Under the pieces are notes generated by a model. That model saw only the letters and a list, made by a program, of their open reading frames with translations, made no database searches and was not told where the DNA came from. From NCBI GenBank assembly GCA_024641655.1, contig JAHECR010000001.1:79738-143737 (forward strand): a stretch of DNA of 64,000 bases. The letters run 5' to 3'. Position numbers and translations under genes: made by a program. This DNA comes from Acidimicrobiaceae bacterium (GTDB taxonomy: Bacteria; Actinomycetota; Acidimicrobiia; Acidimicrobiales; UBA8592). Positions within the stretch are counted from its first letter, which is position 1. Each line of letters opens with the position of its first letter. Positions 49,555-55,406 of this stretch are shown in pieces.

Positions 49555-50757
49555 TCAGCGCACCCCGACGTAGCGCGCCCTGGGACGGAACCGCACCGGC
49601 TTCTCCGACAACTCCTCGATGCCATGGGCGATCCAGCCGGCGGTGCGGGCTACGGCGAACGCGGCCTCGCCCGCGTCGGGGGTCATGTCACCCAGGTACG
49701 TGAGCGCTCCGAGCGCGAGGTCGATGTTGGGGATGGCGTTGCCCCGGCTCCCGACCAGGTCGCGAACCTGGTGGAGGTGAGCCAGACGAGCGTCATTGGA
49801 CCATGCGGCACTCACCCGGCGCATGAGTGCGCCGTACCGGGGATCCTCGTTGCGGTAGATCGCATGCCCGAATCCCGGCACCTGGTCGGCGACGCGTTGG
49901 GCTGCCCCTATGGCGGCCCCGGCATCGCCGAGGCGTTCGACGTCCGCGAGCAGGCGATGTACGAGCCCGCTCGCCGCGCCGTGCAACGGCCCCCCGAAGA
50001 CCCCGAGGCCCGCAGCCACGACCGAGTAGGGATCGGCCCGGACCGACGCCGCGATCCGGGCGCCGAAGGTCGACGTGGCGAGCCCGTGATCGACGGCGAG
50101 TCCCAGAGCCGCGTCGAGCGCGGCGACCCGCGCTGCGGTTGCCGGCTGGCCGCTGAGCCGGGGCCACAGCCGGTTGGCAATCGAGGTTCCCTCCCCCACC
50201 GGCCCGAGCAACGGCAGGCCTTCGACCATCCCGGCGACGAGCGAACGGGTGACCGCATGGACGCCGAGCGGCTCGGTCTCGTAACGCATCGGGTCCGTGC
50301 CCGAGACCACCGACACCGACACCCGCAATCGGTCGATGAGCGGTGTCGCCGCTGGCATCGCCGCCTGGACTGCGGCGAGACTCCTGGCGAGCACGGGTTC
50401 GACGGTCCAAGAGCGCGGGGCCTCGAGCGCGCCATCGACCCCCGCCCACAACCATTCGGCGATGTCCTCGAAGTGCATCCCGTCATCTACCATCGTCACG
50501 AGGTCCCGGCCGCGGATCTGCACTCCCGCGTCGCTCACGTTCGTCAGTGCGGTGCTGATGACCGTGTCGAGCTCGCCTTCCGACGGCCTGCGGCGGTTGC
50601 GTCGGAAGGCCTCGATCTCCTCGGGGTCGAACAGCGACGTGCGGCCGTCCATCGAGACGTTGCGATGCAGCACCCCCCGGCTGACGTACGCGTACAACGT
50701 GGCCCGTTTGACGCCGAGACGAGCAGCCGCCTCTGCAGCGGTGAGCTCCTGTGCCAT
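49555..50757 (-). CDS. Citrate synthase with N-terminal DNA-binding (MerR/excisionase-type) domain
   Basis: The 400-residue protein starts with a helix-turn-helix (AAEAAARLGVKRATLYAYVS, then GRTSLFDPEEIEAFRR; about 5-55), followed by a short-form citrate synthase with catalytic His in GGPLHGAASG and PGFGHAIYR and the Asp in IPNIDLALGA. HTH-citrate synthase fusions are known in actinobacteria; whether they act as enzyme, regulator or both is unsettled. A second citrate synthase is divergent across an AT-rich region with repeated sites. GGAGGG precedes the ATG; longer frames upstream run through that control region. Confidence 0.87.
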   Translation of the reverse strand: MAQELTAAEAAARLGVKRATLYAYVSRGVLHRNVSMDGRTSLFDPEEIEAFRRNRRRPSEGELDTVISTALTNVSDAGVQIRGRDLVTMVDDGMHFEDIAEWLWAGVDGALEAPRSWTVEPVLARSLAAVQAAMPAATPLIDRLRVSVSVVSGTDPMRYETEPLGVHAVTRSLVAGMVEGLPLLGPVGEGTSIANRLWPRLSGQPATAARVAALDAALGLAVDHGLATSTFGARIAASVRADPYSVVAAGLGVFGGPLHGAASGLVHRLLADVERLGDAGAAIGAAQRVADQVPGFGHAIYRNEDPRYGALMRRVSAAWSNDARLAHLHQVRDLVGSRGNAIPNIDLALGALTYLGDMTPDAGEAAFAVARTAGWIAHGIEELSEKPVRFRPRARYVGVR

Positions 50758-50794
50758 GTTCCCTCCGTCGCACAGTGACCGGTCGATGGACACG

Positions 50795-50831
50795 ATCAAC
50801 ATTGACTTGATCAATATTGTCAACATAGATC
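50795..50831. promoter_or_regulatory. AT-rich control region between the two citrate synthase genes
   Basis: Three direct repeats of RTCAAYATWG occur: ATCAACATTG (50795-50804), ATCAATATTG (50810-50819) and GTCAACATAG (50819-50828). They overlap a rightward promoter with TTGACT (50802-50807), an 18-nt spacer and TAGATC (50826-50831). CACAGTGA is also repeated on both sides (50771-50778 and 50840-50847). The stretch is strikingly AT-rich for this genome. The HTH domain of the leftward gene is the likely ligand (inference). Confidence 0.6.
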
Positions 50832-50902
50832 CACTCGTGCACAGTGAGAAGCATCCGAACCCTGGACACTGCGGCAGCGCCCAGCGCGTCGCTGGAGGCA
50901 CC

Positions 50903-52126
50903 ATGACCCCGTCTGCGCACACCTCGCCCGCTCCGAGCACGCCGGCCGCTGCGGGCACGGCGGCCTCCTCGGCTGCCGGCGCGGCCACGACCAGCCTGCC
51001 GCCGACCATCGCTCCCCCCGGACTCAAAGGTCTCGTCGTTGCCGACACCGCGGTCGGCGATGTCCGCGGCGAGGAGGGGTTCTTCCATTACGGCGCCTAT
51101 GACGCCACCGAGGTGGCCGCGGCTCGCTCGTTCGAGGCCACCGCCCACCTGCTTCTGCATGGCGATCTGCCCAACAGGCTCGGCGAGTCGGCGTTCCGGG
51201 CGGAGTTGGCCGAGCGCCGTCGGCTCACGCCGGCCGTCGCCACGTTGGCCGACCACTTCGCCGACGCCGGTCACGGTCCGCTCGCCACGCTGCGCGGGCT
51301 GTTCTCGGTCGCGGTGGATCCGACGCCCTCGCTCGATCTCGACGACGACGCTCGCAGGGAGGCTGTCCTGGCCGCGATCGGCGCTACACCGACGGTGTTG
51401 GCCGCAGTCCACCGGCGCCAGAACGGCCTCACCCCCCTCGCCCCGGACCCGGCGCTCGGCCACGCCGCCGACTACCTCCGAATGGTCACCGGGGCCACCC
51501 CCGATGCCCAGACGGCTCGTGCCGTGGAGACCTACCTCTCCCTCACTGCCGACCACGGGTTCAATGCGTCGACGTTCGCTGCGCGGGTCATCACCTCGAC
51601 CGGTGCCGATGTCGGAGGCGCCTTCGCCGGCGCCGCCGCCGCCCTCTCGGGTCCCCTCCACGGCGGTGCCCCCAGCCGGGTGCTCGACATGGTCGATGCG
51701 ATCGGGGACCCGCGCGACACCGAGCGGTGGGCTCGCGCCACGCTCGACGCGGGCGACAAGATCATGGGGTTCGGTCATGCCGTGTACCGAGCAGACGATC
51801 CGCGCAGCACCCTGCTCCGCCAGACCGCGATCGGCATCGGCGGCGAGCTCGTCGATCGGGCCCTCGACATCGAAGCACGGATGCTGCGCGTCCTTCGCGC
51901 CTGGAAGCCGGGGACGGTGATCGTCACGAACGTCGAGTTCTATGCCGCCGTCGTCTTGCACCTCGCGGGCATTCCCCAGACGATGTTCACCCCCACCTTC
52001 ACGACCAGCCGGGTCGTCGGATGGGGAGCACACATCCTCGAGCAGGCCGCCAACAACAAGATCATGCGTCCCAGCGCGCGCTACGTCGGTCCGACGCCAC
52101 CGCGCCCGGTGCCCGCCGCCGCCTGA
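50903..52126 (+). CDS. Citrate synthase paralogue (citrate/2-methylcitrate synthase)
   Basis: The 407-residue protein has an Ala/Ser/Pro-rich N-terminus of about 35 residues, then a citrate synthase domain with catalytic His in SGPLHGGAPSR and MGFGHAVYRADDPR. The position of the usual catalytic Asp reads NVEFYAAVVL, i.e. Glu, a variant also found in other actinobacterial members (recollection, not checked). GGAGG lies 6 nt before the ATG. It is divergent from the HTH-fused synthase. Confidence 0.88.
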   Translation: MTPSAHTSPAPSTPAAAGTAASSAAGAATTSLPPTIAPPGLKGLVVADTAVGDVRGEEGFFHYGAYDATEVAAARSFEATAHLLLHGDLPNRLGESAFRAELAERRRLTPAVATLADHFADAGHGPLATLRGLFSVAVDPTPSLDLDDDARREAVLAAIGATPTVLAAVHRRQNGLTPLAPDPALGHAADYLRMVTGATPDAQTARAVETYLSLTADHGFNASTFAARVITSTGADVGGAFAGAAAALSGPLHGGAPSRVLDMVDAIGDPRDTERWARATLDAGDKIMGFGHAVYRADDPRSTLLRQTAIGIGGELVDRALDIEARMLRVLRAWKPGTVIVTNVEFYAAVVLHLAGIPQTMFTPTFTTSRVVGWGAHILEQAANNKIMRPSARYVGPTPPRPVPAAA

Positions 52127-53535: not shown

Positions 53536-54147
53536 ATGGACATTGAATTCTGGATCGACCCCATTTGACCGTGGTGCTGGGTGACGGCCCGTTGGGTCGT
53601 CGACGAAGTCATGCCTGCCCGTGATATCGACGTCACGTGGCAGCCCATCAGCCTGCTGTTCAAGAACGAGCCTGCGGATCCCGATCGCCGCGCACCGGTG
53701 ACGTTCACCCACAACCTGTTGCGGGTACTCGAATCGGTGCGCGAAGCCGAGGGCGAGCTGGCGGTGCAGCAGGTGTACTGGGAGTTCGGCCGTCGGATCC
53801 ACCACGACAAGAACCGGTCGTTCACCGCGACCGAGGCGCTCGCAGCAGTCGGTTTCGACACTGCGCACGCCGCCGCGTTCGACGACGAGAGTCGCGACGT
53901 CGAGATCCGGCGACGGATGGACCGCGGCATCGCGCTGGCGGGCAACGACGTCGGCACGCCGATCATCGCGGTCGACGACGAGGACGGGAACCGGGTGGCA
54001 CTGTTCGGCCCGGTCATCACCCGGGTCCCCTCCACCGAGCTGAGCCTGCGCCTGTGGGACGGGTTCGTCTTCATGGCCACCGTCCCAGGGTTCTGGGAGC
54101 TCAAGCGCAGCCGGACCGAGCGGCCCGAGCTCGGCGAGCGGCCATGA
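53536..54147 (+). CDS. DsbA-family (Rv2466c-like) oxidoreductase, candidate selenoprotein with UGA codon
   Basis: From the ATG at 53536 the frame reads MDIEFWIDPI, then TGA (53566-53568), then PWCWVTARW, and stays open to 54147. The family (mycothiol-dependent Rv2466c-type DsbA proteins) has CPWC at this place, so UGA stands exactly at the first active-site Cys, giving UPWC if read as selenocysteine (203 residues). The rest is intact: helical insertion, cis-Pro loop DVGTPIIAV, FGPVITRVPS, PGFWELKR. A hairpin at SECIS distance follows. The stop overlaps the next gene as ATGA. Reading from the internal GTG at 53581 would lose the active site. A point nonsense mutation or a sequencing error is the alternative; selA, selB, selC and selD are not in the window. 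Confidence 0.72.
53583..53601 (+). promoter_or_regulatory. Candidate bacterial SECIS hairpin
   Basis: GACGGCCC-GTT-GGGTCGTC forms eight consecutive pairs (one G-U) with a three-base loop. The loop begins 22 nt after the UGA and its first base is G. Both distance and loop fit the loose consensus for bacterial SECIS elements (loop about 16-37 nt downstream, G among its first two bases). GC-rich coding DNA forms hairpins often, so this is supportive only. Confidence 0.5.
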
Positions 54148-55406
54148 CCGATCGGTCGCGGCCGCTCGCGGCCACGGCCGACAACACCCGCTGGTGGCTG
54201 CTGACCGGCGTCTCGCTGGTGTATTTCAGCTTCGGCCTCGTCATCGGGGCCACAGCCGCGCTCGTTCCCACGATCCGAGCCGACCTCGGTTTGACCCGGG
54301 GCGAGATGGGCCTCGTACTCGGCGTGTGGCAGCTGGTGTACCTCGGCGCCGCGGTGCCCGCCGGCAAGCTCATCGATCGAGTCGGCCTGCGCCTGGGTGT
54401 CGCCGGCGCGGCGTTGTTCATCTTCGCGTCCGGCACCCTCCGCGCGGCCAGCGGCGGCTTGCCGAGCCTGCTCGTATCGGTGGGGTTGTTCGGCGTCGGC
54501 GGCCCGCTCGTGTCGATCGGAGCGCCCAAGCTCGTGTCGGTGTGGTTCGGCGAACGCGAGCGCCGCACCGCGGTCGGGATCTACGGCGCAGCGCCGCCGA
54601 TCGGGATGACCGTCGCGCTCGCGCTCGCCAACGGTGTCGTCTCACCGATCGTCGGCGATTCCTGGCGGGTCACCCTGGTCGTCTTCTCCACGGTTGCGTT
54701 GGCAGCCGGCGTCTTCTGGTTCGTGGTTTCTGGCATCGCACCAAACCGACACGCGGCGCTCGACGAAGCCGCCCCCGCCCTGTCGAGCCGGGAACTCCTG
54801 CGGCTCCCGGTCGTTCGGGTCGTCCTCGTCCTGGCGCTCGGGGGCTTCCTCTTCAGCCACGCGTTGTCGAACTGGCTCGTCGAGATCCTCGAGGACGCCG
54901 GTAGATCCTCGGCCGCTGCGGGCTACTGGGCCGCGATCCCGACGTTCGTCGGCATCTTCGCCACAGTCGCCGTTCCCCGGCTCGCGACCCCTTCACGTCG
55001 AGTTGGGCTCTTCTCGGCGACCTTTCTGCTCGGCGCGGTCGGCGTCGTGTTCCTGACCACGACGACCGCGGCACTCCTGGCACCGGCCCTGGTGGCTGCG
55101 GGCATCAGCCGCACCACGATCATGCCCCTGGCCATGCTCATCTTGATGGACAGCGAGCGAGTGGGCTCGCGCAACATGGCAGCGGCCGGCGCGCTGTTCT
55201 TCACCGCCGGCGAGATCGGAGGCATGTCGGGGCCGGCGCTGACGGGATGGCTGGCGCAGGTCACCGGCGGCTTCGGCATCCCGATTGCCGTATTGGCCGC
55301 GACGATGGCGGCGATGGCAGCACTCGTCTGGACCCTTCCCGCTGCTTCCCACCGCTCGTCCACGGTGGCAGCAGCCGCCGCCGCGACCCGCGCGACACTG
55401 GTGTGA
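54144..55406 (+). CDS. Major facilitator superfamily transporter
   Basis: The 420-residue protein has twelve likely membrane segments and MFS loop motifs ([38 protein letters not shown]). It looks like the CynX/NimT-type anion or drug exporter branch; the substrate is unknown. The ATG overlaps the stop of the DsbA-like gene (ATGA), so the two are translationally coupled. Confidence 0.85.

Follow-up and report, generated by a model that had tools for sequence, protein, structure and literature searches.

The 64,000-nucleotide stretch of Acidimicrobiaceae DNA analysed here (hereafter, the window) contains a gene whose eleventh codon is UGA, and the question is whether this codon ends translation or is read as selenocysteine (Sec). 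On the forward strand, the frame from an ATG at 53536 to a TGA stop ending at 54147 is open except for this single TGA at 53566–53568. A first-pass annotation had described the frame as intact on both sides of the TGA and had placed the TGA at the first Cys of a CPWC motif; frame reading, a match to PF22234 and alignments with PDB sequences all agreed with this description. Dozens of related genomes keep both the UGA and a hairpin that follows it, and from these sequence data we conclude that the gene very probably encodes a genuine selenoprotein.

The reading frame and the encoded protein

Read through the UGA, the gene (53536–54147, forward strand) would encode a full-length selenoprotein of 203 residues with a UPWC motif and an Rv2466c-like/DsbA-like thioredoxin fold, as indicated by the frame, profile matches and a structural model. 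The UGA (53566–53568, forward strand) would specify Sec as residue 11, at the nucleophile position of CPWC. The second, resolving Cys of the motif, Cys14 (53575–53577, forward strand), is present in all 64 distinct UGA genes described below, encoded by TGC in 47 and TGT in 17. Pro142 (53959–53961, forward strand) follows Thr141 at the cis-Pro position of thioredoxin-fold proteins; we take it to be in the cis state, and G140-T141-P142 is invariant in 22 aligned proteins. It had also been pointed out that an ordinary gene caller would start at the GTG at 53581–53583 (forward strand) and lose the active site, and the table-11 open reading frame after the TGA, of 188 residues, indeed begins there. 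No evident Shine-Dalgarno sequence precedes the window ATG, while inspection by eye found an AGGAG-like stretch in many relatives; a leaderless start of the window gene is possible, and relatives do not share it as a general feature.

With codon 11 given as Cys, the protein matched PF22234 (Rv2466c-like) with an E-value of 4.1e-40 and 138.3 bits (cut-off 27) and PF01323 (DSBA) with 31.4 bits (cut-off 25.6); the latter match, together with UxxC, corresponds to the definition of DsbA-like form 1. NCBIfam had no fitting model for it (best E 0.033). Four distinct PDB sequences of the Rv2466c type (4ZIL, 4NXI, 5XUR and 4WKW) matched with E-values from 7.1e-37 to 3e-34, and in both PDB alignments inspected codon 11 lay under the first Cys of CPWC. 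An AlphaFold model of the full-length protein, built from 22 aligned proteins, had a mean pLDDT of 92.8. In Foldseek, the ten best PDB matches of this model comprised eight Rv2466c chains and two chains from M. leprae (4WKW), the best being 4ZIL (E 1.9e-15, TM 0.83, rmsd 2.1, for the predicted model). DR2335, FrnE and GST kappa were the next neighbours, far behind Rv2466c, and DsbA was also behind. The same genome has a second Rv2466c-like paralog, of the Cys type (CPWC, 27–33% identity), on another contig (L137, C89:16077-16676).

Codon 11 in related genes

Of 345 genomes of the class that were searched, 186 contained relatives, and a contig scan added 37 named loci. The titles of 32 scan loci gave Acidimicrobiia, Acidimicrobiales or Acidimicrobiaceae, and those of the remaining five were Actinomycetes bacterium (L049 and L057), Candidatus Aldehydirespirator (L056), Actinomycetota bacterium (L069) and bacterium (L074). 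The genes of two genomes from the same order as the window, G324 and G227, were identical in DNA to L062 and L070 (both Acidimicrobiia). Codon 11 was read in 87 loci (L019–L105), which comprised the 30 best matches of the class search, 20 hand-picked further down and the 37 from the scan. It was TGA in 67, TGC in 14 and TGT in 5, one locus (L080) being too short. The earlier proposal to check homologues for Cys or UGA at this codon was thereby answered: all 86 readable loci have one or the other, and TAA or TAG occurred in none of them, rows with TAG or TAA (e.g., G344, G087, G423, G433, G512, G537 and G527) having been left out of the codon-11 reading. The 67 TGA versus 19 Cys codons do not represent a frequency, because the loci were not sampled at random and further rows of the class search, mostly without a stop, were left out. 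With three exact duplicates removed, 64 UGA genes remained distinct, alongside the 19 Cys genes (14 TGC and 5 TGT).

Among the matches listed, 34 genomes of the class had a best match of at least 54% identity with one internal TGA, and in all 34 this TGA was codon 11. These UGA genomes, out of 345 in the class and again among the matches listed, belong to 14 genera under 9 family codes. Two further candidates, G217 and G260, contain an internal TGA elsewhere; their codon 11 is TGC, and they were rejected.

We also searched 396 genomes of the phylum, 358 of them outside the class. A relative with an E-value of 1e-15 or better was found in 69 of the 358, and no UGA at codon 11 was seen among the relatives found in these genomes by protein search; the five out-of-class rows with a TGA (G679, G472, G391, G531 and G398) all had Cys at codon 11. 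A search of the 396 genomes with a 15-base DNA pattern matched 117 and was too loose, and the protein search was used instead. A plasmid collection yielded 33 records, all below 60% identity, and five among the matches listed were annotated as DsbA family protein. Viral contigs gave 57 candidate stretches, of which none qualified.

Predicted function and gene neighborhood

Our best guess, by analogy with characterized relatives, is that the protein is a Sec (UPWC) version of Rv2466c, a mycothiol-dependent oxidoreductase, and would act as a mycothiol-driven selenoreductase. It shares with Rv2466c/Mrx2 (PF22234; 4ZIL, 4NXI and 5XUR) the family model, the fold, the place of the active site, Pro-Trp-Cys and Thr-Pro, whereas it has UGA (Sec) for the first Cys, is 34–38% identical and is known here from its sequence and predicted fold. 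For Rv2466c, the available portion of one report describes attack by Cys19, competition by Cys22 through a disulfide and reduction of the enzyme by mycothiol (PMC11841060); Sec11 would stand for Cys19 and Cys14 for Cys22. The product would then belong to the thioredoxin-fold reductases of the Rv2466c (Mrx2) type, with a selenolate serving as its attacking group. Sec11 would attack the oxidized substrate, Cys14 or mycothiol would resolve the selenenyl intermediate, and mycothiol would regenerate the enzyme. This cycle, the substrate and the dependence on mycothiol are inferred from the analogy. As a more tentative proposal, which we rate at somewhat less than an even chance, the clade may represent the first class of selenoenzymes that use mycothiol: a Sec Mrx2 that forms a selenenyl-mycothiol intermediate, acquired a single time in Acidimicrobiia and retained across many families.

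The protein could instead be a selenoprotein that acts independently of mycothiol, as a DsbA-like oxidase, isomerase or peroxide/xenobiotic reductase unlike Mrx2, and we consider this unlikely but worth weighing. The modest identity to Rv2466c would fit such a role, and the host's MshC-like gene scored about 407–408 bits, below the cut-off of 485 (its CysS score is 331, lower than its MshC score). On the other hand, MshD was over its cut-off (200.9 versus 163.1 bits, positions 91–291 of 294 matched), and Rv2466c is the closest family and fold, ahead of DR2335, FrnE, DsbA and GST kappa.

The neighborhood in relatives also bears on a possible different electron partner. In 24 loci (including L021, L059, L068 and L085), 23 of them distinct as L062 repeats L021, the UGA gene has upstream of it, on its own strand, a gene for an FrhB/FdhB-like F420 hydrogenase beta subunit (PF04432, and PF04422 in L021); this gene is absent at the window. 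The match ends 15–194 bases before the UGA gene in 23 of the 24 loci, the exception being L023, with a partial match 652 bases away. Given this gene, it is possible that the electron source is other than mycothiol, and the 23 distinct loci count in favor of a mycothiol-independent enzyme.

The first-pass annotation had noted a coupled downstream gene. An MFS transporter gene (54144–55406, forward strand, PF07690) does overlap the gene end at 54144; as a conserved partner, however, it failed, since it was found in only 1 of 67 loci (L019–L085, flanks of 3 kb or less), namely the window itself, and it is best seen as a local neighbor. A nucleosidase neighbor of the window likewise occurred in 1 of these 67 loci. 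Elsewhere in the window, two open reading frames with citrate synthase domains lie on opposite strands (49555–51048, reverse; 50297–52126, forward), and a helix-turn-helix domain (PF12728) precedes one of them.

A conserved hairpin downstream of the UGA

A putative bacterial SECIS hairpin lies at 53583–53601 on the forward strand, with an 8-bp stem formed by GACGGCCC (53583–53590) and GGGTCGTC (53594–53601) and a GTT loop (53591–53593) that begins with G; 22 bases separate the UGA from this G. The first-pass annotation had listed an 8-bp hairpin, its loop beginning with G, 22 nt past the UGA. The structure is present and is kept as RNA in the 64 genes, but its form in the single sequence is unremarkable. 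The same 8 pairs arose in 2497 of 20000 random synonymous draws, so the window hairpin alone is not beyond chance, and 40% of 3000 draws had a folding energy as low. Folding energy, ordinary in comparison with random synonymous draws, was therefore rejected as evidence for a SECIS, and the hairpin counts as evidence because it is conserved across 64 distinct genes and not by its single-sequence fold.

This conservation is strongest at silent sites. The stretch GTG ACG GCC CGT TGG GTC GTC hardly varies among the 64 distinct UGA genes. Entropy per codon was 0.00 for Val16, 0.32 for Thr17, 0.12 for Ala18, 0.39 for Val21 and 0.27 for Val22, all below the minimum of 0.56 (mean 1.47) for 72 scorable comparison codons of 4-fold or higher degeneracy outside codons 13–23. 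Arg19, which contributes the closing pair and part of the loop, had an ordinary entropy of 1.17. Cys genes could be scored in the hairpin only at codons 17 and 19, where entropy was 1.80 and 1.75. Over codons 16–23, UGA genes had a pS of 0.149, compared with 0.64 for Cys genes. These data support selection on the hairpin at silent sites in UGA genes.

Pairing was likewise maintained: among 40 distinct rows, 97.8% of cells were paired when stem columns 18–25 were set against 29–36, compared with 15.6–60.6% in slid versions. One stem pair, columns 21 and 33, occurs as GC, AU, UA or GU, which is a compensatory change. Covariation was 0.054 versus 0.036 in shuffled alignments, with 1 of 500 shuffles as high, whereas the number of pairs with two-sided changes did not reach significance (61 of 500 shuffles gave as many); the two-sided changes rest on one pair in two sequences (L048 and L086). 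L053 breaks the 21–33 pair, and six genes with AGG break the closing pair. The loop begins with G in 64 of 64 UGA genes (GTT in 44, GGT in 20). One Cys gene (L094, TGC, of genome G027) keeps 21 of the 21 frozen bases, compared with at most 17 in the other 18 Cys genes, and its hairpin is likely a relic of a recent change from Sec to Cys.

Reading through the UGA

If the UGA were a true stop, the gene would consist of a ten-codon leader followed by re-initiation at the GTG at 53581 and would yield a truncated protein without its active site. Codon 16 is indeed a possible start in all 64 UGA genes (GTG in 62, ATG in 2), and it is where the table-11 frame begins; its constancy is nevertheless accounted for by the stem, to which its third base belongs. 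Moreover, the truncated form would have neither the first strand nor UPWC, and codons 12–15, between the UGA and the GTG, would be untranslated. In the 64 UGA genes these codons have a pS of 0.64, with all silent changes falling at Pro12 and Cys14, and a pN of 0, while codons 2–10 before the UGA have a pN/pS of 0.21. Codons 12–15 thus vary silently and never in amino acid, which argues that they are translated and that both sides of the UGA belong to one protein. We regard re-initiation, the strongest rival to read-through, as very unlikely.

Sec machinery in the host and the class

It had been proposed that the genome be searched for selA, selB, selC and selD, and selA, selB, selD and tRNA-Sec were all found in it. 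The genome is a draft of 3.9 Mb in 121 contigs, listed as 92.78% complete with 5.72% contamination. selB (303 bits, over the cut-off) is on contig C50 and adjoins selA (386 bits); selD (371 bits) is on C113 (L010), and tRNA-Sec (63.5 bits, anticodon tca) is on C4. The GC content of the stretches with these genes (0.698–0.702) is in keeping with that of the window, which is 0.687 overall and ranges from 0.651 to 0.715 in 2-kb steps. The selD gene has its own in-frame UGA, within the motif HGAGUGCK; SelD is a different protein in the same genome and provides internal evidence that the Sec machinery is used. The machinery genes and the conservation of the UGA and hairpin are observed; binding of SelB and Sec insertion at the window gene are inferred from them, in that the UGA at 53566–53568 would be decoded as Sec by SelB and tRNA-Sec, aided by the hairpin at 53583–53601.

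Another reading is that a suppressor or near-cognate tRNA inserts Cys, Trp or Arg instead of Sec. Cys does work at codon 11 in relatives, and tRNA-Sec-like tRNAs are charged with other amino acids in some bacteria. However, the genome has the canonical selA-selB-selD-tRNA-Sec set, the window gene and the gene before it end in ordinary TGA stops, and the UGA in the host SelD is at a known Sec site, the UxxK entry in the available part of a recent compilation (PMC13188914). Insertion of a residue other than Sec is highly improbable.

The chance of a pseudogene or sequencing error, in which one nonsense change would have struck a Cys gene that is decaying or was misread, is negligible: the frame does carry a stop, and one draft genome alone would be insufficient to exclude such a change, but codon 11 is TGA in 67 of 86 readable loci and never TAA or TAG, constraint at the protein level is evident before and after the UGA, and the silent sites of the hairpin are frozen.

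Across the class, selA was over the cut-off in 33 of 34 UGA genomes and in 195 of 311 others (Fisher p 6.6e-6, uncorrected for kinship; calls were made by E-value for rows without listed bits). tRNA-Sec was found in 31 of the 34. With the thresholds used, G292 had no selA match and G324, G232 and G302 had no tRNA-Sec match, each having the other marker. The Cys form does not imply loss of the Sec machinery, because 11 of 16 genomes from which this form was read keep selA. The idea that the UGA gene is what maintains the Sec trait in the class was rejected in view of these genomes and of the 195 of 311 with selA and no UGA copy. In ten genomes of one family code (G272, G274, G082, G319, G268, G144, G189, G292, G176 and G327), tRNA-Sec and the UGA gene share a contig and are 7.3–11.8 kb apart.

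Evolutionary history

In a tree of 83 proteins, the 64 UGA genes and nine Cys genes formed one clade with support of 100/98, and ten Cys genes fell outside. The tree needs five state changes; its well-supported branches alone force only two, and several deep forks are weakly supported. The simplest reading of these sequences is that the Sec form was gained once in Acidimicrobiia and was lost to Cys about four times. Its ancestor would have been a Cys form close to the root of an Acidimicrobiia clade, with some four later reversions to Cys.

Taken jointly, the best explanation is that the UGA is Sec, inserted by way of SelB, tRNA-Sec and the hairpin, in a selenolate reductase of the Mrx2 type whose Sec form was gained once and lost about four times; we give this reading a probability of roughly 0.93.

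Relation to known selenoproteins

DsbA-like selenoproteins with UxxC have long been known, and any novelty is therefore at the level of the subfamily. In the available portions of the reports, they appear in the 2005 Sargasso Sea data as COG2761 (PMC1088965), in a 2006 survey of bacterial genomes (PMC1794560), in the 2008 Global Ocean Sampling study as DsbA 1 and 2 with UxxC and DsbA 3 with UxxV (PMC2398784) and in a 2016 bacterial survey with 45 sequences in 41 organisms (PMC5029168). Tables of 2022 and 2026 place the DsbA-like selenoprotein as PF01323 (PMC9312934 and PMC13188914, as far as available). The window protein resembles DsbA-like form 1 in having Sec first in UxxC and in passing the PF01323 cut-off; in the portions available, PF01323 or COG2761 is the only placement given for the published entries. 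Some of the DsbA-like records already published, of which AACY01178397 and NIP15863.1 are examples, may belong to our clade.

The first-pass annotation had considered a UPWC member of the Rv2466c family little described. The broad group of DsbA-like UxxC selenoproteins is well established, but we found no Sec form of the Rv2466c subfamily. No paper joining Rv2466c or mycothiol enzymes to Sec was found in a search of mostly open papers, and a prior description is possible; "mycothiol" and "FrnE" are absent from the main text of PMC13188914 and PMC9312934, as available. The hairpin resembles the bacterial SECIS in being a stem-loop immediately past the UGA whose small apical loop contains a G, as given in the available part of PMC1088965, whereas the putative SECIS of the window has a 3-base loop and a sequence near-fixed in 64 genes. 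SelA and SelB have been noted, in the available text of one study, in sponge-symbiont bins of various phyla (PMC5649159).

Implications

Ordinary calling of open reading frames starts this gene past its active site and would thereby hide a clade of selenoenzymes, here mostly from metagenome-assembled genomes. If our reading is true, it would join selenium to the mycothiol redox system and would provide a near-fixed, easily searched SECIS. Natural Sec/Cys pairs, including the hairpin-keeping Cys gene of G027, would then make it possible to gauge the benefit of selenium to an Mrx2-type enzyme.
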